64,000 nucleotides of DNA, from the NCBI GenBank assembly GCA_036925085.1, contig JAUPFP010000078.1:124001-188000 (forward strand), read 5' to 3'. Below the pieces are notes generated by a model. It was not told the DNA's origin, made no database searches, and worked only from the letters and a program-made list of their open reading frames with translations. Of the stretch, positions 3,271 to 60,426 are shown in pieces. A program made the position numbers and the translations under genes. How positions within the stretch are numbered: the stretch's first letter is position 1; each line of letters starts with the position of its first letter. This DNA comes from Brachycybe producta (lineage: Eukaryota > Arthropoda > Diplopoda > Playtdesmida > Andrognathidae).

Positions 3271-3492
3271 TTATGAAGAAGAAATGTTTTCAATTTTGTC
3301 TTGAAACCGGTTGGTTTCTTGTAATTGAAGACGTATTGAGTTTCTATCATTATTACAACTGTTTCCTCCTCCACCGTCAGTCACCGACATGATCTGAGTT
3401 GATGCCGAGGCTCGACTGTTGAAACTGCGGCCACCTCGAGAATCACGCATTAATCGATGACGGTTGTAAGTCCGATGTAACAACAATTGCAC
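3271..3492 (-). CDS. GPCR distal alternative last exon (tail 2)
   Basis: Begins after a CAAAAG acceptor in phase 0 and encodes 73 residues starting VQLLLHRTYNRHRLMRDSRG, with GGRSFNSRASASTQIMS, then a stop. It splices in frame from the 42-nt TM7 exon, giving FCYSTTE-VQLLLHR, the usual helix-8 layout of class B receptors. It is less AT-rich than its flanks. It is homologous to the proximal tail (R-T/S-Y/F-N/D-x-H/F-R-L then GGRS), so the two are duplicated, mutually exclusive ends; the Ser-rich tail may be a phosphorylation target (inference). Confidence 0.75.
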   Translation of the reverse strand: MQLLLHRTYNRHRLMRDSRGGRSFNSRASASTQIMSVTDGGGGNSCNNDRNSIRLQLQETNRFQDKIENISSS

Positions 3493-6400
3493 CTTTTGAT
3501 TATTTATTTAGATTTGAGATGAAGGATTAATAAACACAAAAATAAACATAAAACGACAACAAAAAAAACAAAGGTGTAGAACAAAGGTGTAATTAAATTA
3601 TGGCTTTTAGAAGAAATTAGTGCAACAAAAAAAAGTGCGAAAACTGCAACAAAGAATTGCTTCACAATTTGTCAACATTGTCACAAACACAACTGTTAGG
3701 TCGTTGACACACGAACCACTTTCTGAGACCACTTTTCGACTGCAAAATGAAGTCGGGAGTTGTCGCTCAAAACGCGACCACTTTTTGAGTCCACTGCGGT
3801 GGTTGAAATGTGGTCCAATTTGTATGCCAAGAGCCGGAAGTGGTCGATTTTGAGCGACAACCCCGACTTCATTTTTATAGTGGTCTCAGAAAAGTGGTCT
3901 CAGAAAAGTGGTCCGTGTGCTCCAACAGCCTTAAAAGAAGCAGTTCTACGGAGTCCTGTAAAATCCATGCGAGATTTTTTTTTAAAATCTCGACATTTCG
4001 ACTTTAATCTCGACATGCCGACTTTATTCTCGGCATGTCGACTTTTAATCTCTTTTATTCGGCCATGTTGCGCGAACCATACTCTAAATTATTGCAAGCG
4101 CCCTGTTGTAGCAGCATTAATTTAATTATTATAGTATGGTGCGCACAACATGACATAATTAACAATGGCCGAATAAAAGAGATTAAATGTCGACATGTCC
4201 GAGAATAAAGTCGGCATGTCGAGATTAAAGTCGAAATGTCAAGATTTAAAAAAAAAATTCTCGGCTGTCCTTTACAGGGCTCCGTAAAGTTCAGTTAAAA
4301 ATAGCCAAAAAAAATAATAGAAAGAAAGGGTCAAAGAGAGTATTTTATTTAGTTGACAGGACACATGGAGGTGGTGCAACTAGGCCGCGACTTGCGATGA
4401 GTGGCACTGCCGCTTCGGCCTCCCAACTTCTGCTGAAGGCGGAATGTGTCGAAGGAACGGGCCAACAGGGACATTATCTATTAGATATGGGGACCGGGGA
4501 ATTACAATAGAGATATATAGACCACACATAAAGACATAACACATGGGAATACAAGAGACTGACCACAACTGACCACAAGAAAAAACGAAAAAAATGACAA
4601 CAACAACAACAACAACACATTTGTCACAAATTTCGAGGGTTAGATTTACCTCAGTTGTGGAATAGCAGAAAGAAATGGACACAATGAAACCCTACAATAA
4701 ACACAAAACAATAGCAATCATAAGTTAAGGCTCAAATTCAAGAGGGAAAGTTGGCACTTGAGCTTCAACTTGAGCCCTTTCAACAGGGTTCCAACATTTC
4801 ATGAAAATGCAACTTTGGAAATTCATTGCAAGTGAAACGGAAGTGCGGGAATGGAATTTTTTGGGTGCAATGCATTTCCAGTGATGTCTGCAGGACAAGA
4901 ATGTCTTCTTTTCCTGTGTGAAATGCGCGCCTCAAAAGTTATAAACCACTTTAGAATGGGCGTGATCAAGTGGAAGTTGAAGTGCCACGTTTTCTTCTTG
5001 AATTTCGGAGTAAATCTCTCTTGACCATTGGTCAGTTCTGATATTTTTTTTTACTTGCAAGCCATCAAGCACAGTGCTAAAGTAGGACCAAAGGGCTATT
5101 ATGCCACATGTTCCTTGATGAGGAAGATAGATTGTGGTCAAGTAGTGGACACCAAACAAGGGTACCAGGACCAATGTGGCCTTTGCTGCTTTTCTGTTAA
5201 AGAAATAGGTTTAGAGAAAATTTATTACCGAACTTTCTAGAAACAAGTTTTTAAAGAAATTGAGAAAGTGTGTTCGAAACTAGAATATAGTAAATGAAGG
5301 ATCTAAAAGGATTTTCATGATGACATCTTTCAAAATAAACTTTTAAGAAGCAACTTTAAGTAGAAATTGAAAGTTTGTTATTAACTAGAATGGTAAATGA
5401 AGAACCGAAAAGGATTTTCATGATGACGTCTTTCAAAATAAACTCCAAGAAGTATTTGAAAGTTTGTTAGGAACTAGAATAGTATATGAAGGATCTATGA
5501 GTATTTTCATGACGATATCTTTCAAAATAAACTTTTTTGCGTGATTTCGAAACGTCGTTTCTTGGAAAAACGAGTTTTCAACTGCAATAAAAAGTAACCT
5601 ACTGATTTACTATTCTTGTTTCTAACAAACATTGAAATTTTTTATAATGTTGCTTCTAAAATGTTGAGTACTTTTTGTTTTTGTTTTTACCGGAAGTGAC
5701 TCGGTTCATTCGAATGTGCTGCCCTGAGTTTGGTCACGAGTCCTCGAATGATATTGATCAGAAATATAGTATTGAGCTGTTAATAAGCAAACGAAACTTA
5801 GAATTTTGCATCGACATATAGTTGAAGAGATTCAAGTACACACCTTTTTAGAAACAAATTTGAAAAGAAATTCGAAAAGTATTCGAAACTAGAAGGGTAA
5901 CTGAATTGATTGATTATATTTTTATAACGATATCTTTCAAAATAAACTTTTTATGACAGTTTGAAAATGACATTTGATTTCTAATTGGCAACAAAACAAT
6001 TTTAAAACGTACTCGTTTTTTTTTTAAAGTGACGTAAAAAGTTTATTTTGAAAGATATCGTTATAAAAATACAATCAATTTATTCCTTTACCCTTCTAGT
6101 TTCGAATAATTTTCGAATTTCTTTTAAAATATGCTTTTAAAAAGTTAAGCACCTGAATTATTATATTTAAGAAGAAAAAAAAATGTAATTCTCATCAACT
6201 TACAATTAAACTGAGTAACATTGGAGCATTCATGATCCACTCGTAATTTCCGGATGTGGGAGCCATCCAACATCAACAGACCGGAAAAAAATACCGGAAA
6301 TTTATTTTCTTAATAAAATGTTCAAAATGGCTGTTTTTACACTTACTGTTCATCGTACCAGATTATTCGTATTACGGAGTAGATGGTGACGGGAATCAGA

Positions 6401-9400
6401 GGAAATACTAGAAATAAAAACAATAAATAATATTTAGAAAAAAGTTTCTTAAAAACTAGAAGAGTAAATAAATTCTCTAAAAGCATTTTTCGCGATGCTA
6501 ATCTTAAAAAAATAAACTTTTTATCAAAGTTTGAAGTTAAGATGTTTTAATCAACAGTTGATTTTCAAACTCTGAATTAAAAGTGTGTTAGAAACTAGAA
6601 GGGTAACTGATATCTTTCAAAATAAACTTTTAAAAGATGAAAATTTAAAAAAGAGGGGGGGGGGGGTCTGTTTAAAGTTTGGTAATTTTCAAACTCATCA
6701 TAAAAAAGCTTACTTTGAAAGATATCACTAGGGCTCGGATTTTTATGCAAAATATCAATCAAATGTTTCTCAATTTGTGGCCCAAGTGCCAATTTTGAAC
6801 AATCATCATTAGAGCAACTGCAATAATGCTTTTTTTTTAAAAAAATCAAAACGGCTGGTTAGAGGCTACATGTCTTGGTTGCTATCAGTTGTCAACTAGT
6901 TTTCTAGCCTCTAAACAGTATTTTTGATTGAAAAAAATCATAATTGTTTGTTGATCTTATAACGTGATCGTTACTTCACAATTGGCTCTTGGGCCACAGA
7001 TTGAGAAACAGTTGCATAAAAATCCGAGCCCTGGATCTCACCCTGAAAATACACCAATAGTAAAGTACTACTTACTCCAGCCCATGATGTAATAAACAAC
7101 CAATCGTTTTTCTTCTGCAAATGACGTCACAATAAGTTTATGCAAATAAAATGCTTCACATAACATCCACATGTAAGTGCAAGTTCGAGTATATTTAGTG
7201 AAGGTCAAAGCTAATTTGCATATAGCCTATATTTTAAAATATAAAAATATATAATATTATATAATGCAACATATATTTCAAGAATGAAATGGTGCATTTT
7301 TTCAAATAACGAGACTGTTTAGAGGCTAAAATTGAAATAAATTAATATTTTTGTTGGGTTTAAAGTGTAAACGGTGCCTCTCGAACTCACTACTCTGTAT
7401 TTCAGAAGAGCAAAATGAAGAGAAACTAGAAAGTGTTTTAGAAACTAGAAAGGCAGCTCAATCGCTTAAGTGTATTGTTTTAGAAACTAGAAGGGCAGCT
7501 CAAGTGTAGAATGAAGGAGAAACTTGACTGTGTTTTAGTAACTAGAAGATTAATAGCTCACCAGCTCACTTAATAGTAATTTTCATGTTGATATCTTTCA
7601 AAATAAACTTTTTATGTCAGTTTCGAAATTGACCCATCTTTAAGCAGACGATATTATTTAAATTTCTGTCTATAAAAAGTTTATTTTGAAAGATGACAAC
7701 TTGGAAATACCGCGTGGGCATTAAGTGATTGAGCAACTTTTCTAGTTTCTAAAACACTTTCTAGTTTTGTCTCTTAATTTTGCTCTTCTGAAAGACAAAC
7801 AGTCAAAAGAGTTCCAAAAATTGGCTCTTCATGAACCATCTAATTCTAGCCTCTAAACAGTCGCACTGATTGAAAAAGTTAATTTTTACTGGATTTTGTG
7901 CGTTTATAACGTTTTCCTCATCGGAATTGCCGTCCTCCAAAGCGTTTAAATTGATGATGAGCAATTTAAATACAATGAAGGCAATTGCATTGACAATCAA
8001 TGACAAGAAAAAGTTGGTGTGCATTGTTATTCTGGGCACTCGAAGTTGCCTGAAAAATGTACAAAAAAAAGAACTGTAAACGCGGCTTCTAGCAAATAAT
8101 GTAAGTGTGACCGCAGCATTATTTTTTTACAAAATTTGAAATTACATTTTACAAGATTGTTTAATAACTAGAAGATTAAATATCAAAGTATTTTAGAGAA
8201 AGAATCGTACTACACTTAACAATTTTAAAAGGTACTTTAAAAACTAGAAGGGTAAAAGAATATTTTCCTTATGGGGATATCTTTCAAAATAAACGTTTTT
8301 ACCGATTTTGAAAATGGAAAAACCTTTTTTTTTTGGTCCAACTAGAAAAAGGAAAAATTTGAAATTGCCACAAAAAAAGTATATTCTAAAAGATATCAAC
8401 ATGAAAATATTCTTTTAAGTTCATTAAATTACTCTTCTACTTTCTAAATTAACATAGAGAATATGAAATTGGAAATATTTTAACAACTAGAAGAGTAAAT
8501 AAATGAAATAAATCACTCACATTGGCTTTTTTTAGGCCATAAAAAGTCTATTTTTAAAGATGTCAACAGGAACAAATTTCTAGTTTGTTCGTTGACTTTT
8601 CTAGTTTTTATCGCACTTTTAGTTTCTTTTTTAAAATTGCTTCAAAAAAGTGCTGACTAGAAGCTGACCACATTGAAAAGCCTTTTGAGACGTTTGTTGC
8701 TTTTTTCGAGCAACAAAGGTCTTGCATGACTACGTAAATGAGCTCAATTCTGGATGTCATTATGTATGGATGGATCTCAAATGTTCTGAGCCATATAACT
8801 CGGAAATGGGACTACTTACGATAAAATGACATTAGATCGAAAATCATCTTCACATTCCAGGGATGCTAAATAATTAATTTGATAATTTTAGCTTAACTGC
8901 AACTAACTAAAAATCGATCTAGATCAATTTTGGATGTGAGGATGGATGGATGTCAATCATTGCATGCAACATAAATTGCGAAAGTGATCACGTACGATAA
9001 AATATCACGAGATCGAAAATCATCTATACGTTCTAATGATGTGCTACCTGTTTAATTTGATAATTTTAGTTTAATGCACAAATTAACTAAAATCGATTAA
9101 GAGATAGCAACAAAGGTCTAAAGGGGAACTCCTATTCTTACTTATATGAAAAAAAGATGAAGACAGCCGGCACCAAGAAGACGAGCGAGATGATAAATGC
9201 ACCGATGTGAATGAAGATTTTTCTCTTTAGCGTATCGGATCGACCGCAAGTGACGTAATCCGTAAAAGGGTTCCACGTTCCGTTCGCGAAACAGGTTTTC
9301 GTCGCGTAACCTACGAAGACAAGCGGTTGAATTGTTTCACAGGCCACTTTTGGTGGTTGAGTGGTCACTCAGTTTCTTAGGGTTATTTTAGTTGTCTTAC

Positions 9401-11220
9401 TTGGACACCCTTCGAGTGGTGGGTCACCGTAAAAGTAGATGTGAGACGGGCAAACGACGTGAGCCGTCGAGCCGCTTATGGTGTCATCAATGCATTGCCA
9501 GCCATCCCACTGTCTGGGGCAGTGATTTGCACCTGAAAAAAAAAACATGAAATTTATGTCTTGAATTATAAATTTATGCAAATTGATTCTAGTTGACAAC
9601 TTTTTAGAAGTCATTTTAAGAAGAGTTTAAAAGTGTGTTAGAAAGTAGAATAGTAGGCGAAGAAGCTAAAAGTATTTTCATGATGTTATCTTACAAAATG
9701 AACTTTTTAGAAGCAAATTTAAACAAGAATTTGATAGTGTTAGAAACTAGAATAGCAAATGAATAAGCTAAAAGTATTTTTATAATGTTATCTTTCAAAA
9801 TAAACTTTTTAGAAGCAACTTTAAGAAGAATTTGGAAGTCTTATTTATAAACTAGAATGATAAATGAATGAGCTAAAAGTAGTTTAATGATGTTATCTTA
9901 CAAAATGAACTTTTTAGAAGCAAATTTAAAAAAAAAAGAATTCGAAAGTGTTAGAAGCTAGAATAGTAAATGCATGAGGTGAAAGTATGTTATCATGATA
10001 TCGTTCAAAATAAACTTTTTAAAAGCAACGTTAAGAATTAATTTGAAAGAGCCTAATGAGCCTAAAGTTGTTTAAATTAATGAGGTTATCTTACAAAATG
10101 AACTTTTTTAGAAACAACTTTAAGAAGAATTTCAAATTGTTGGAAACTAGAATAGCAAATGAATAAGTTAAAAGTATTTTTATAATGATATCTTTCAAAA
10201 TAAACTTTTTTTTAGAAGCAACTTTAAGAAGAAAGATGTCAATCGCGACAACAAGTTGATTATTTAATCTGGTCCTTCTAGTTTCTTAAGTTTTCTTTTT
10301 CTACTTTTTTTTCTTCATATAAACTAGAATGAGAAATGAAAGAACTAAAAGTAGTTTAATAAAGTTATCTTACAAAATGAACTCTTTAGAAGCAAATTTA
10401 AAAAAAAGAATTCGAAAGTGTTAGAAGCTAGAATAGTAAATGTATGAGATGAAAGTTTTTTATGATGATATCGTTCAAAATAAACTTTTTACGTGATTGT
10501 GAATTACTTTGAAGAAAAAAAACCGTCTTTCAAACTGCAATAAAAAGTTTATTTTGAAAGATAACGGTATGAAAATACTTTTAGTCTATTGATTTACTAT
10601 TCTAGTCTCTAACAAACTTTAAATTTTATTTGAATGTTGTTTGTGATTTGTTTTGAACTTGAAACCAAGGAGGAACCGAAACTCACTGACGTTTCCATTC
10701 TCCAACATCTTTTCACAACATTTCTTGGATTCTTCACAACACGAAGTCCACATTTGAACTCCTTGTTCTTCTCTGAATGTGTTTTGAATATGAAGAATGT
10801 CCCTTTCTAGTCTGTAATCGTAACGTTTTGGTATTGTCCAATTGTTTGTTTGTTCCCAGCCCCATAATGCACCTAGATCTCCCGGTCTGTAGCAAAGTTG
10901 TTGTTTGAAAAATGTGACCGGTAGGAAAGAGTAGCACTGAACACAAGCGTCCCCATAAAATTCGCTTCTGTTTAGAAGTAGGGAGTGGCGGTTACGGCAG
11001 AGACCTTCGTTGGCCGCCGTTTCGGCCATCCGTGCCACCGCCACCGCCGTCATCATCGTCGTTGTCGTGCTCGGTAAGGATGAGCTAGTGAGAGGTGCCA
11101 AAGTGCTGAAAATCTCCTATTCAGTTGAAAGTAAGAGAGAGGTTACATTGAATAGTTGTTGGTTACTGACTAGAAGGTGCAACTTACATTTTGCTCGTAG
11201 CAGCTTTTGGCAAAACTACT
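3271..11220 (-). CDS. Class B1 (secretin-family) GPCR, calcitonin/DH31-receptor-like
   Basis: Peptide-hormone receptor at the plasma membrane. Exons (minus): 11188-11220 (33 nt, tentative), 10687-11105, 9401-9532, 9142-9367, 7890-8049, 7076-7226, 6347-6407, 6204-6273, 5691-5776, 5055-5193, 4650-4691, then either 4349-4477 or 3271-3492; all phases agree. The ectodomain has CCEESKKCCEKML and CPRQWDGWQC, then CFANGTW before TM1. TM2 follows VPRITMHTNFFLSL; TM3 has WMLCEAFYLHKL; QCW in the second extracellular loop supplies the conserved Cys; ICL3 reads TKLRAAHSNEP then RKAAKATLVLVPLFGVHY (TM6); TM7 is DGLQ plus GFIVSISFCYSTTE, from the 42-nt exon typical of this class. The ectodomain and TM6 favour the calcitonin/DH31 branch, but PDF or CRF receptors cannot be excluded. 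The N-terminus and signal peptide are unresolved. Oddities: one GT-TG intron, one tiny intron, duplicated last exons. Confidence 0.9.
3493..3694. other. GPCR intron sequence between alternative tails
   Basis: AT-rich intronic sequence with A-rich runs. Nothing else recognised. Confidence 0.4.
3695..3930. repeat. Palindromic element M
   Basis: Inverted arms: ACACACGAACCACTTTCTGA at the left, and its approximate complement TCAGAAAAGTGGTCCGTGTG at the right; inner arms GAAGTCGGGAGTTGTCGCTC and GAGCGACAACCCCGACTTC. About 235 bp, no coding capacity, MITE-like. Single copy in this window. Confidence 0.7.
3942..4295. repeat. Palindromic element N
   Basis: About 350 bp palindrome with ends TACGGAGTCCTGTAAA and TTTACAGGGCTCCGTAAA. 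The arms carry iterated TCGACATGCCGACTTTA-type words, so each arm is itself internally repetitive. A half end is also seen near 2435. It sits in the intron before the distal GPCR tail. Confidence 0.7.
4344..4349 (-). terminator. Poly(A) signal overlapping the proximal GPCR stop codon
   Basis: The proximal tail ends CCTGTCAAC-TAA-ATAAAA, so AATAAA overlaps the TAA stop at 4349-4351. A usable signal this close would end the short transcript before the distal tail exon. Confidence 0.5.
4349..4477 (-). CDS. GPCR proximal alternative last exon (tail 1)
   Basis: Phase-0 exon after a CTAATAG acceptor, 42 residues: IMSLLARSFDTFRLQQKLGG, RSGSATHRKSRPS, then CTTSMCPVN and stop. Joined to the TM7 exon it gives FCYSTTE-IMSLLARSF. 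It aligns with the distal tail, pointing to a duplicated terminal exon. The Cys residues could be palmitoylated (inference). Confidence 0.7.
   Translation of the reverse strand: MMSLLARSFDTFRLQQKLGGRSGSATHRKSRPSCTTSMCPVN
4560..4625. repeat. (CAA)n microsatellite in GPCR intron
   Basis: Short CAACAACAACAACAACAAC tract within the 172-bp intron between the 42-nt exon and the proximal tail. The opposite strand is (GTT)n, which can supply a long open frame of valines that is not coding. Confidence 0.6.
5225..5670. repeat. Family C-type repeats in GPCR intron
   Basis: Three direct copies of an arm (AACTAGAATAGTAAATGAAG, then ATCTTTCAAAATAAACTTTT) followed by a diverged inverted arm. This variant has GAATAGTAAATGAAG where the main family has GAAGGGTAACTCAATC. 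Confidence 0.7.
5850..6130. repeat. Family C palindrome in GPCR intron
   Basis: Left arm CTAGAAGGGTAACTGAATTG then ATATCTTTCAAAATAAACTT; right arm AAGTTTATTTTGAAAGATAT then TACCCTTCTAGTTTCGAA. Nearly symmetrical and about 280 bp. Confidence 0.75.
6274..6346 (-). other. GPCR intron with GT donor and apparent TG acceptor
   Basis: The donor after the TM4 exon is a standard GTAAGT. The next exon must start one base before TGT-TGG to give Gln-Cys-Trp in frame, but that position is preceded by CTGTTG, not AG. The only usable AG upstream runs into stop codons. All other introns placed here end in AG. Confidence 0.6.
6410..6729. repeat. Diverged family C copy in GPCR intron
   Basis: Partial palindrome with AAACTAGAAGAGTAAATAAA and a second AAACTAGAAGGGTAACTGAT start, a central ATCTTTCAAAATAAACTTTT, a G-run near 6655, and an inverted GCTTACTTTGAAAGATATCA arm that abuts the family G end. 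Confidence 0.6.
6730..7032. mobile_element. Family G palindromic MITE with nested family H (copy 1)
   Basis: Terminal inverted repeat AGGGCTCGGATTTTTATGCA and TGCATAAAAATCCGAGCCCT, near-perfect. In the middle lies a smaller palindrome with TTAGAGGCTA and TAGCCTCTAAAC (family H). The same nested arrangement occurs at 37967-38285, so the composite moved or was copied as a unit. Confidence 0.75.
7310..7865. repeat. Family H arms enclosing family C copies
   Basis: CTGTTTAGAGGCTAAAATTG at 7315 and TCTAGCCTCTAAACAGTCGC near 7850 are inverted and enclose several family C arms (7420-7790). Read as an H palindrome opened by C insertions; all within one GPCR intron. Confidence 0.55.
8150..8640. repeat. 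Diverged family C copies
   Basis: Arms with AACTAGAAGGGTAAAAGAAT, ATATCTTTCAAAATAAACG and inverted AAAGATATCAACATGAAAAT followed by ACTCTTCTACTTTCTAAAT. Intronic. Confidence 0.6.
8690..9120. repeat. Tandemly duplicated element P
   Basis: Two diverged direct copies of about 220 bp, each with GGATGTCATTATGGATGGAT-like words, ACTTACGATAAAATGACATT or TACGATAAAATATCACGA, GATCGAAAATCATCT and AATTTGATAATTTTAG. AGCAACAAAGGTCT bounds both ends. An inverted relative lies at 35830-36100. Confidence 0.6.
9368..9400 (-). other. Very short GPCR intron (33 or 54 nt)
   Basis: The ectodomain exon ends at A-GTAAGA, and the following frame reaches a TGA 31 nt on. The first in-phase AG (AACTGAG) gives a 33-nt intron; a second (CCAAAAG at about 9347) gives 54 nt. 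Both keep frame. Neither has a long pyrimidine tract. Confidence 0.55.
9600..10625. repeat. Array of family C-type arms in GPCR intron
   Basis: About eight direct copies, 150-180 bp apart, of AACTAGAATAGTAAATGAAT, ATATCTTTCAAAATAAACTT or TTATCTTACAAAATGAACTT, and AGAAGCAACTTTAAGAAG, closed by one inverted arm at 10540-10620. Same variant as 5225-5670. Confidence 0.7.
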
Positions 11221-46378: not shown

Positions 46379-49300
46379 TTAATTTTTCTCGAGACAAGTT
46401 GGTAAATTGACCATTCCAAAGACATTCATTTCGAAAAGATTTGAAAAAATGAGGAAAATTATGTACATGATGAGACAACTAATGCCCAGTTTTTTGTCGA
46501 GCTTCCACTTGTTGAGTATGACGACGGCATAGAGAAATACGACCGTCGACAGCAGAGTTATGGTCGAATATTCGATACCGGCACTGTTGATAGTCACCGA
46601 GTTGTTACTAGAGAATCCGGCTGCTTTGATAACCCAAGGAAGGCCGAGACAGAAGAGAATGTCGAAGATGTTGCTTCCGAGGATGTTCGAAACGGCCATA
46701 TCGCCGTAACCTAACATAAAAAAATGAAAAAAAAACTCGTTATATTCGATGGACTTTCCACTTTGTCTTCGTTGGAATTCGAGGTTCTCGAGGACGATCT
46801 TCCAGAATACCTTGTCGGCATACGAGAACACTTGAAATTGCTTCCGGTACACTAGTTCCGGCAGCGAGGAATGTCAGTCCCATGACCGTATCGGGAACTC
46901 CTATGGTGTAACCTAAAAGAAAAAACGATACCGATGTGTATAGAAATTGCATTTGAAGTTCTCGTCATGGTGGCCACGGATTTGGGCCCATACCTATAAT
47001 GGTGACCATCCATGCGGTGACATACGACAAACTTCCGATGTAAATAATAGAGATGAAGAAAGTGCCCATGTAGTATGGTTTCCAAGCCTTCTTGCGACAA
47101 TTTGGAATGGTCAAGTAGAAGACGAAGTTCGCTGGCCACATGATGACCCACGAGATCTGCTTTAAGGTACCATGGTACGGCATGGACCAGATGGAATCTC
47201 CGTCGTCGTCGTCGTCATCTTCGTCGTCGTCTTTGTTGTCTTCTACGTTCTCTTTGATCGCGACCGAAAAGCCGTTGTCATTTTTTAGATCCACAGACGA
47301 TTGAGAGTCTTTAGTGGCCTCGCCGAGGAGAGGACTCTGTTCCGATGAGGCCAAAGTATCTTCCAAGTGTTTCCCTTTGTGGCATAACGAGTTAGCGACT
47401 CGTCTGGCTATTTTTTCTAATTTAGTGTTGAAGCACATCATGACAATGTACAGACAGTAGAGCAGTAACATGAAGGCCCCTTCCCACCTGAAAAAAGCAA
47501 GATCCATTATTTTACTGTCGAAAAAGCGTCGACCGATCCCGGTCAGTTAGGACCCGGCAGAGTGCGTCGGCAACCCGAGCCCACTTTTGGTCTGCCGTGG
47601 CCGAAAGTGGGCTAATCGTGGTCAAAAGTGGTCACGGTGGCCATACGTTGAGAACGCGGGTAAAAAACTTACGCCCCCGGGGCGTAAACCCCTGGCGTAT
47701 TAATGACTTAGTTATGAGAGTTTGGCGAACTCGTCACAGAATATACGAGCTCGGATATAAAGAAGGGAAACTGTGGACACCTTTGATGTTGTTGTGACAG
47801 GGAAGTTAAACAGGAAGTCTTTTTTTTTGTCATTTTAACCGCTTACTCAACTCACTTTGAAAGGGCCGCCATTTTGAAAGTAGGTATGTCGCCATTTTGA
47901 AAGTAGGCATGTCGCCATTTTGAAAGTGGGTAAGGAAACGAATTTTAACATAGAAGTCTATGGAAACTTGCGCACATGCACAGAAATAACGAATTACAGG
48001 TTTCTGACCGAGTTTTCTCTTCTCTATTCGCTGCTCTCGTGATACCTCGGAATTGCGAGTTTGCTTACCAAGTGACCCGCTGATCAGTTATGATGCAGAT
48101 TAACGTAATGACTGTGATGACGTATGCAAAACTATCGCGAGTCATGGGCCACCAATCCAAAGAAACCACCTTGAGAAACAAAAAAAAATTACTAAAATTA
48201 ATTCCTGGCTGATTTTTGACTACAATAAAAAAAAACAGACGCCATTTTGTTTTGTATTTAAATTTTTGTTAGTTTAGTTATTTAGAAAATAAAATAGAAG
48301 CATATTCCTTTGTTTCTTCTTATTTACTGCCCTTTTTTTCTGAGGAAGAAGTGGTTTGTGAAGTTGTGGTGGGATGCATGGTCAGTATGGTTGGTTGGTT
48401 GGTTGGATGGATGGGTCAGAAGTTGTCCGTAGGCGGGAGAAGAGGAGGTCCCGATAGACAGAGATAGAGCTACTCATAAGACACATGCAAATTTGAGTAG
48501 GAGTAGGGAATTAGTTAGAACGGAAGTGGTTGGGAATGGATCACTTGTGGTCTTATCTCCCCTCCCTCACTCATGTTCACCCTCAAGCCTACAACTCACT
48601 TTCTGTAAAAGAGAAAACACATTTTTAAACACGAAAACCGTTCTTTTTGTAACCATTTTGAAATTGTTTATTTGGCAGCCATTTTTAAAACATTTTGGCA
48701 GCCATTTTATATACTTTTTGGGAGGAATTTTTAAAACATTTTTGCAACCATTTTTAAAACAGTTTGGTAGCCATTTTTAAAAGTAAGTTTTCTGTTTGAA
48801 AACTTTTTGGTATATTTTTAAAAATTCTTTAGACAGCCATCTTAAAACTTTTTGCAGCCATTTTTAAAGTTTTTCGCAGCCATTATGAGAATACTTAGAG
48901 AGAAATTTTGAAAACTTTTTTCACAATCATTTTGAAAATATTCACAATAAGTCTTAAGTAATTTTGTTTGTCACTTTTAAAAACTTTTTTATCAGCCATT
49001 TTGAAACTTTTTTTTTTCAGCCATTTTGAAACTTTTTTTTTCAGCCATTTTGAAACTTTTTTTTTCAGCCATTTTGAAACTTTTTTTAAGCCATTTTGAA
49101 ACTTTTTTTTCAGCCATTTTGAAACTTTTTTTTCAGCCATTTTGAAACTTTTTTTTCAGCCATTTTGAAACTTTTTTTTTCAGCCATTTTGAAACTTTTT
49201 TTGCCACCATTTTGAAAAATGTTTACCAACCATTATGAAAAGTTTAGAAATTTAGTTAATTTAGTTTAGAAAATTGGTTAGAAATTTTTTAAGTAGAAAT

Positions 49301-58491: not shown

Positions 58492-60426
58492 TTAAATCGT
58501 ATCGTCGAGATGCATTTTCTTCGGAGGCGGTTCTAGTCCATCTTCGACCGTATCCGCAAACAAAACCGTATTCGGCAAGACGAAACTAACTCTCGCCATT
58601 TCTTTATTAGGTGCCACTTTTCGCACGTGCGTCACCTCGGTGAGCGACGAATCGATCCGTTCTCTCAGTACGGATTCCACCATAGAGATCGCAGTTTCTC
58701 GTAAAGTGTCTTCGTCTCCTTTACAAAACATGTAACAATGGACCGTAGGCAACTTCGAGGCTTTCTCGTCGTCGCCGTCACCACGAGACAAGAGACCGCG
58801 AAACGCATCGAGAAACTCGACCGCAATCGCCGGTAAGTTCATAACCACGTGGAACTCCGAATGACGGAGATGCGAATCGTGACGACACTTTACCATATCC
58901 TTACCGATAACCTCTTTTATGAACTTCCGTCCATCCATATTGTAAGTCGTAACTCTGTCTTTAACTTTATTTAGCTCCAAGTTCCGTTCGAGGTACTTAA
59001 AAGACGAAGGATTGAGATCGTTCGCAAGGACTCTGCATTTTTTAAAGCGTGCCGCCGGAACCGCAAAAGGGCCGACACCGCAGAACACGTCGTAGAGAAC
59101 GCAACCGTACGGCAACTTCTCTACGATGCGTTCGTGTTCGCTCGATAATCTCGGATTCCAGAAAACCTCCGAGAAATCGAACTCGAATCGACAACCGTTT
59201 TCTCGTACGTTGGCGATCATCGTTCCGTCGCCGGCTACGACTTCCATTTTGAAATTGCGGTAAGTATTATCGATCGTGTCCGTCTTATTAACCACTAAGG
59301 TAACTCCGACGAGCTTGTCGATTAAAACCTGACCGATGAGATAACGATAATCCGTTAAGTGTTCTCTCAGGTTCAGATGTACGATGTGGCCGATACGACT
59401 GTACGCAGTCGATTTCTCGCGGTCGTCGGGTAACACCGCTTTCAAGATGTCGTCGTTCTTCCAGTTCTCGTACTTCAGTTCTACTTGCTTCCATTGCAAC
59501 GCTTCGATTGCATCGTTTCGAAGGACCTCGCGAGATAGCGGATCCAGATCGGACATAGTTTTCACTCGATCGGGATTCAGAAGGATCCAACGTTTTGTCG
59601 GTGTCGTGTCGTCTTCGTAAACCGATTTGAAGTCTTTTAGTTTAAGTAAGAACGGTTTAATCGGTTTCAGAATCTGATTGATTTTGTGTCCGGCCACTAG
59701 AAAACATGGGACTGTGACCAGTTTCGTAAAAAGGGAACAGTCAAGAGTTTTCATCCCTTGAACGCTTGTCGGCGGTTTCAGAACCGATTCTAGCGGTGAT
59801 ACGGTTGTTTCTGATAGTCTTGAAGACGATTTCGATGATTTCGTGTTGTCTGTCTGTTCGGACGATTCCAGAAACGCTTTTGTGAGTTCTGACAATTTCA
59901 CAGCCGATTTCGCCAATTCTGACGATTTCAGAACCGATTCCGTCTGTTCTGACAATTTCAGAGATGTGTCCGTTAGTTCTACCGATTCTTGAGCCGACTT
60001 CTTTAATTCTGACGATTCTGGAACCGATTTCGTCGATATTAATTGTTCTGACGATTCCAGAGGTGCTTTCATCAGTTCAGCGGAATCGAGTGCCGATTTT
60101 GTCAATTCTGACGACTCTAGAGCTGACTTCTTTAATTCTGACGATTCTGGAACGAATTTCGTAGATAATATCTGTTCTGACGATTCCAGTTCTGACGAAT
60201 TAGTCGACTTCAGCTCCGATTGTGTTGTCTTTACTAACGATTTTGTCGGTTCTGACTCTTTCAGAACCGTTTTCGTCGAATCAACTGCTGATTTTGTGCA
60301 ATTCGATCCAGTTGCCATAGTTACGGCGTCCTGAAACAGTAACTTGTGACCTGGATGTCGTTTCAAAACGGAAACGGGTCCTAAAAACAGTTTTAGAAAC
60401 GGTTTAGAGCGACACCACATGTACAT
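58492..60426 (-). CDS. TRMT5: tRNA (guanine(37)-N1)-methyltransferase TRMT5
   Basis: Transfers methyl from S-adenosylmethionine to N1 of G37 beside the anticodon, preventing frameshifting; acts in mitochondria and nucleus/cytosol. One uninterrupted exon, 644 residues (human about 509). Residues 1-35 (RSKPFLKLFLGPVSVLKRHP) look like a mitochondrial presequence; a second Met at 37 could start a non-mitochondrial form. Residues about 50-215 form a Ser/Glu/Leu/Lys-rich insert built on 11-residue repeats (ESSELTKSALD). The conserved enzyme starts near 222 (VQGMKTLD). Motifs: AYSRIGHIVHLNLREH (341-356), NTYRNFKMEVVAGD (387-400), SAM site DVFCGVGPFAVPAAR (446-460), ANDLNPSSF (468-476), HVVMNLPA (526-533), VAPNKEM (604-610). 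All expected catalytic blocks are present. Codon use is less AT-rich than the surroundings. Confidence 0.95.
   Translation of the reverse strand: MYMWCRSKPFLKLFLGPVSVLKRHPGHKLLFQDAVTMATGSNCTKSAVDSTKTVLKESEPTKSLVKTTQSELKSTNSSELESSEQILSTKFVPESSELKKSALESSELTKSALDSAELMKAPLESSEQLISTKSVPESSELKKSAQESVELTDTSLKLSEQTESVLKSSELAKSAVKLSELTKAFLESSEQTDNTKSSKSSSRLSETTVSPLESVLKPPTSVQGMKTLDCSLFTKLVTVPCFLVAGHKINQILKPIKPFLLKLKDFKSVYEDDTTPTKRWILLNPDRVKTMSDLDPLSREVLRNDAIEALQWKQVELKYENWKNDDILKAVLPDDREKSTAYSRIGHIVHLNLREHLTDYRYLIGQVLIDKLVGVTLVVNKTDTIDNTYRNFKMEVVAGDGTMIANVRENGCRFEFDFSEVFWNPRLSSEHERIVEKLPYGCVLYDVFCGVGPFAVPAARFKKCRVLANDLNPSSFKYLERNLELNKVKDRVTTYNMDGRKFIKEVIGKDMVKCRHDSHLRHSEFHVVMNLPAIAVEFLDAFRGLLSRGDGDDEKASKLPTVHCYMFCKGDEDTLRETAISMVESVLRERIDSSLTEVTHVRKVAPNKEMARVSFVLPNTVLFADTVEDGLEPPPKKMHLDDTI

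Follow-up and report, generated by a model that had tools for sequence, protein, structure and literature searches.

Two related candidate last exons behind one TM7 exon in a putative calcitonin-type receptor gene of the millipede Brachycybe producta

Alternative 3′ exons encoding the C-terminal part of a receptor are established in the insect ETH receptors: according to the accessible parts of two papers, ETHR-A and ETHR-B carry the alternative exons 3a/3b or 4A/4B, and the two isoforms were mapped to largely separate neurons in the moth and the fly (PMC8175484, PMC5572281). In the available text on the Aplysia tachykinin receptor, a class A receptor, isoforms A and B differ only in the intracellular C-terminus, and desensitization is determined in part by the tail (PMC11365428). 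A commentary on latrophilin-3, an adhesion GPCR, describes in its accessible part that E31/E32 splicing alters the C-terminal region with a reported shift in G-protein coupling, and notes conflicting coupling data (PMC11043342). C-terminal isoforms are also mentioned in the available portions of papers covering C. elegans NPR-5 and T19F4.1 (PMC3414713) and fly Moody (PMC3510462). Among class B receptors, isoforms differing in pharmacology are described, in the text available, for C. elegans PDFR-1a–e (PMC3527849, PMC3414713) and Tribolium Urn8RA/RB (PMC8040626); as far as these sources go, they may or may not be of the alternative-tail kind.

No paper among the matches listed for open-licence PubMed Central described two related last exons in a receptor of the calcitonin type, and the accessible parts of PMC6039563, PMC7200681, PMC12638048, and PMC3863949 contained nothing on alternative receptor tails. 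A previous sequence-only reading of the DNA described here proposed two homologous alternative last exons for a GPCR, expected the switch to change arrestin and kinase coupling, and knew of no such arrangement as standard for this receptor class. This agreed with the search as regards calcitonin-type receptors; alternative C-terminal 3′ exons are, however, established for the insect ETH receptors (PMC8175484, PMC5572281).

We analyzed a window of 64,000 nt of the B. producta assembly GCA_036925085.1 (contig JAUPFP010000078.1, positions 124,001 to 188,000, forward strand); the genome searched comprised 295 Mb in 442 contigs. The receptor gene model occupied the minus strand from approximately 11056 to 3271 and consisted of ten exons and two possible last exons. 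The features, in window coordinates, were as follows.

10687–11056, minus strand: first extracellular exon of the model; open frame, donor CA/GTGAGT, next exon in phase 1
9401–9532, minus strand: exon of the hormone receptor domain (exon model; Pfam HRM, 6.3e-10 over the spliced protein)
9142–9310, minus strand: end of the hormone receptor domain and TM1 (exon model)
7890–8049, minus strand: TM2 exon (exon model)
7076–7226, minus strand: TM3 exon (exon model)
6347–6407, minus strand: TM4 exon (exon model)
6204–6273, minus strand: exon encoding the conserved Cys-Trp of extracellular loop 2; the intron before it would have TG, not AG, at its 3′ end
5691–5776, minus strand: TM5 exon (exon model)
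5055–5193, minus strand: TM6 exon (exon model)
4650–4691, minus strand: 42-nt TM7 exon, common to both tails, coding for GFIVSISFCYSTTE; ends in phase 0
4349–4477, minus strand: tail A, candidate alternative last exon, IMSLLARSFDTFRLQQKLGGRSGSATHRKSRPSCTTSMCPVN; 42 aa; AATAAA overlaps the stop codon
3947–4286, no strand assigned: larger dispersed palindromic repeat, MITE-like, between the last exons; ends approximate
3705–3934, no strand assigned: second dispersed palindromic repeat between the last exons; ends approximate
3271–3492, minus strand: tail B, candidate CLR-like last exon, VQLLLHRTYNRHRLMRDSRGGRSFNSRASASTQIMSVTDGGGG...ENISSS; 73 aa

The start codon of the first exon is tentative, and one more exon upstream is possible. 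The intron 6346–6274 (minus strand) had no usable AG; the Cys-Trp exon seemingly begins after ...ccggtctgttg because an in-frame TGA stands before TGT-TGG. Either the intron is of the rare GT-TG kind or the assembly differs by a base here. The TM7 end of the receptor read STTE, versus N-G/S-E in four paralogs, with the Glu retained. Because of this TM7 end and the apparent TG acceptor, the locus could be imperfect, either as a damaged gene or through an assembly error.

Two other minus-strand features of the window were 58492–60426, where TRM5/TYW2 methyltransferase domains (PF02475, 9.1e-27) were encoded in a frame without interruption, and 46379–46873, an exon encoding a Na/Ca exchanger domain (PF01699, 6.8e-14). 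The genome also contained a 15.4-kb mitochondrial contig, the frames of which (invertebrate code) were read by eye as COX1, COX2, CYTB, and ND genes, with a tRNA run Ala-Arg-Asn-Ser-Glu, of a type typical of arthropods, identified by ARAGORN. Two large contigs, C17 and C1, also contained COX1-like stretches of about the same quality as the mitochondrial one, the stretch in C1 with an extra TAA; they are either nuclear copies of mitochondrial DNA or assembly joins.

The spliced isoforms with tail A and with tail B were intact proteins of 502 and 533 aa, respectively. Both contained the 7tm_2 domain (PF00002; 2.5e-53 and 3e-53) and the HRM domain (PF02793; 6.3e-10 and 7.2e-10). Among solved structures, the best matches were CLR of the CGRP receptor (223 bits, 5.7e-65) and the calcitonin receptor (214 bits, 3e-62), both nearer than the further class B1 receptors PTH1R (166 bits) and VIPR2 (145 bits). 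These matches point to a class B1 (secretin family) GPCR of the calcitonin/CLR type, probably an arthropod receptor of the DH31-receptor type, a name given by similarity. The isoform ends with tail A and with tail B both aligned to solved class B1 receptors through helix 8.

The TM7 exon (4691–4650) ended with the donor GAG/GTAAAT, and both tails could be joined to it in phase 0: tail A via the acceptor ...tctaatag/ATAATG at 4477, with a stop codon at 4351–4349, and tail B via ...atcaaaag/GTGCAA at 3492, with a stop codon at 3273–3271. The coordinates, strand, phase, and frames that the sequence-only reading had given for these joins were right. Since a stop codon ends each tail exon, the inclusion of tail A leaves tail B untranslated. 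Among the minus-strand AG sites, the acceptor of tail A was at the 80th percentile and that of tail B at the 45th, versus the 91st to 100th for the other acceptors of the gene, according to an approximate, crude matrix. Two weak competing acceptors, the nearer one being better, would fit a regulated choice as far as such a crude matrix can indicate.

The same reading had also ascribed its own poly(A) signal to each exon, which is literally true; the presence of AATAAA near a stop, however, was close to chance level on the minus strand, where it occurred within 35 nt of 330 of the 2013 TAA triplets and within 70 nt of 803 of the 3898 stop triplets. Poly(A) signals were thus rejected as support for the tail exons. 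Codon usage in the coding frame (z of −0.75 and −0.43 for the two exons, by a small reference) was equaled or surpassed in other frames and was uninformative for tail A and tail B alike. The G+C content of tail A was 57% versus 40% and 31% in its flanks, a value reached by 0.3% of 129-nt windows. Retention of the intron after the TM7 exon would give an in-frame reading of 89 residues; however, 1002 of 18238 stretches of 171 nt were open in one frame. As for splicing motifs, a TGTTGTTG run was found at about 4605–4617, and two GCATG both lay within the larger palindromic repeat. No Rfam family matched in the window at gathering scores.

Two related helix-8/tail exons after one TM7 exon are well supported at the protein level. 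With the alignment fixed at the splice junction, residues 1–14 of tails A and B had a BLOSUM62 score of 24, reached in none of 20000 shuffles. The length of 14 residues was picked after the alignment had been seen; at 18 and 22 residues, 11 and 5 of 20000 shuffles, respectively, reached the observed score. Counting both strands, the window has 6891 AG sites, of which 2854 are open for 14 codons; apart from A and B themselves, none reached 24 against B or A. Whole-tail local alignment was weaker (108/20000 and 146/20000 shuffles). The alignment proposed earlier extended to a shared GGRS: its helix-8 start exceeds chance, but the GGRS stretch past helix 8 is not significant on its own (512/5000 shuffles) and was rejected as independent evidence of homology.

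Over these 14 codons, five first, eight second, and three third positions were identical between the tails. Codon shuffles (n = 10000) matched the second-position count in 35 cases, while the first and third positions were at chance (3891 and 6202 cases). Such a pattern would look like an old duplication held at the protein level; convergence on helix 8 would also be compatible with it. Local alignment of the DNA revealed no similarity between the tails (1841/2000 shuffles), and the 16 identities in the first 42 nt were marginal (240/5000). Because DNA similarity is absent or marginal, the case for duplication rests on the 14 residues.

When the window was scanned with the helix-8 starts of the four paralogs found in this genome, tail B ranked first (13.2) and tail A second (10.0) among 6891 AG sites, the third site scoring 9.8. 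Tail A was sixth of 6891 with 15 human starts and fifth with all 19 starts; the sites that outranked it in these two scans, apart from tail B, were Arg/Lys/Glu-rich stretches elsewhere in the window. Within the slice 9000–500, scanned with the 19 starts (4 paralog and 15 human), B scored 15.8 and A 9.9, and the next of 375 open sites 3.0. Three paralog loci served as controls, with their own tail left out: the real tail ranked first of 452, 365, and 442 open sites, with scores of 18.7, 38.7, and 8.4 versus 6.4, 4.6, and 2.9 for the best other sites. With a yardstick that was nearly the same, tail A (9.9) outscored one true control tail (8.4). At the DH44R-like locus, which lacks the intron there, nothing scored over 4.0 in a scan with three starts. 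With the PDFR1-like tail as the sole yardstick, tail A was 42nd and tail B 20th, with ties present.

A 42-nt TM7 exon was also present in the PTHR-like paralog and in two paralogs that we take to be PDFR-like, with a phase-0 helix-8 exon next in each; in the DH44R-like paralog there was no intron at the TM7/tail position. The names PTHR-like and DH44R-like were backed by searches of solved structures. No second tail was found at the four paralog loci in the 8–10 kb read downstream of the TM6 or TM7 exon; since reading was confined to 8–10 kb, a tail lying further off would escape. Each tail was found in one copy in the genome; thus, no second gene shows the tail pair. In PTHR, a 42-bp TM7 exon just ahead of the tail is a known alternative splicing site (delta-exon-14; PMC3179322), and a review calls the corresponding exon, exon 17 of PAC1, highly conserved in the secretin family (PMC3659299); in the accessible parts of both sources, however, the variation is exon skipping, with no second tail.

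The end of tail A and the start of tail B were 856 nt apart, and two palindromic repeats, one of about 340 nt and one of about 230 nt, occupied about two thirds of this gap. Both are dispersed in the genome: the ~340-nt repeat had at least 146 matching pieces (40 of 1207 candidates scored) and the ~230-nt repeat at least 57 (40 of 517 candidates scored), the own place and both strands being counted in each case. The tail exons were probably much closer together formerly. Just downstream of the receptor gene, at 2765–2973, there was a 78-nt inverted repeat with 90% complementarity, MITE-like by appearance. A motif like AAAGTTTATTTTGAAAGATATC recurred, by eye, in several introns within 5300–8400 (minus strand) and has the appearance of a dispersed repeat.

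Tail B aligned with the human CLR tail beyond helix 8 (0/5000 shuffles reached the score), and its outer part alone also matched CLR (10/5000), while the outer part of tail A did not (2807/5000), tail A keeping helix 8 only. Because only B matches CLR beyond helix 8, the ancestral tail is most probably B, with A as the variant. The same result speaks for a reading that treats tail A as a relic, namely a last-exon duplicate unused or used at noise level, tail B being the sole functional tail; the dissimilarity of the outer part of tail A to both tails compared (B as well as CLR) and the lack of a second tail at the four paralogs in the stretches examined are in line with it. We regard this as unlikely. 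The helix-8 residues are similar in spite of third codon positions at chance (3/14), and a copy of such age, if unused, should by now have neither its frame nor its helix 8 nor its splice site; in addition, the acceptor of tail A outscores that of tail B on the crude matrix.

A further reading, in which tail A arose as an exon of separate origin, came to resemble helix 8 by convergence, and is used as an alternative last exon, seems very improbable to us. Helix 8 is generally constrained in class B1 receptors, and the DNA similarity between A and B is little or none. Tail A resembles the CLR helix 8 as well (local score 28, 139/5000 shuffles), and tail B is nearer to human CLR (34), GCGR, and GLP1R (27 each) than to tail A (24). 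Against convergence, tail A scores higher with tail B (24) than with each of the 15 human starts (closest CLR, 23, and GCGR, 20), and the score with tail B is far above the 6 obtained with the PDFR1-like helix-8 start. Least probable of all is that the helix-8 likeness of tail A is due to a chance open frame after an intronic AG in a one-tailed gene. Its likeness to tail B is unmatched among the 6891 AG sites, 56 AG dinucleotides are present on the minus strand between 4649 and 3200, and tail A ranks second of 6891 with the in-genome starts while lying in the right intron, strand, and phase; a chance frame would, on the other hand, agree with a signal carried by 14 residues only, with the lack of support from codon usage and poly(A) signals, and with the few chance sites near or above A in the window-wide rankings.

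We therefore prefer, as the probable explanation, a calcitonin/CLR-type receptor with an anciently tandem-duplicated last exon, the copies of which are alternative last exons. The terminal exon would have been duplicated in tandem long ago, a course we favor over convergence, and the donor of the TM7 exon would pair with either the proximal acceptor (A) or the distal one (B), each mRNA having its own stop codon. Both predicted isoforms would retain the seven helices and helix 8 and differ in the outer tail, of 42 versus 73 residues. Which tail is used could be decided by the two acceptors competing, that of A being near and better and that of B far and weak. A broader possibility, which we consider doubtful, is an old, selected tail switch of the arthropod calcitonin/DH31 receptor, with the same ligand site and with G-protein, kinase, or arrestin coupling differing by tissue, that would exist in many arthropods and have been overlooked since gene models keep one last exon.

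In class B1 receptors, G proteins, kinases, and arrestins engage helix 8 and the tail. The difference in the outer tail would be expected to alter kinase, arrestin, or trafficking contacts, whereas ligand binding should be equal in both isoforms because helix 8 and the tail alone differ. By one pattern, tail A carried one complete long arrestin phospho-code and tail B two; by a stricter pattern, tail A carried none and tail B two. A clean arrestin-code difference between the tails was rejected as a prediction. As each tail has at least one complete long phospho-code by the former pattern, it does not follow that one tail lacks arrestin, nor can a better-coupling tail be predicted. Concretely, the predicted tails differ in how long they are and in a CLR-like, Ser-rich block that B has. 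If the proposed arrangement is true, one ligand site with two related helix-8/tail exons would make a clean system for the role of that segment alone, and the hormone system concerned is known for its part in water balance.

Among calcitonin-type receptors, the nearest case is the Rhodnius CT/DH receptor 1, variants B and C of which show C-terminal splice variation in an arthropod; in the accessible text, however, an alternative splice site cuts exon 13 by 6 nt (2 residues), and no second last exon is described there (PMC3843727). The closest known design is that of the insect ETH receptor, likewise an arthropod neuropeptide GPCR in which one gene has alternative 3′ exons giving the C-terminal part, as described in the portions available. 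Here, two related 3′ exons follow one donor in the same phase, each with a stop codon, their relatedness being confined to helix 8. The ETH receptor differs in belonging to class A and, according to the same portions, in having exons that run from TM4 to the C-terminus and alter ligand sensitivity, whereas helix 8 and the tail alone are concerned here. Receptor-tail swapping itself is thus already known, while no report of a two-tailed calcitonin-type receptor was among the matches listed; if true, the alternative 3′ exon design of the insect ETH receptors would extend to calcitonin-type receptors.
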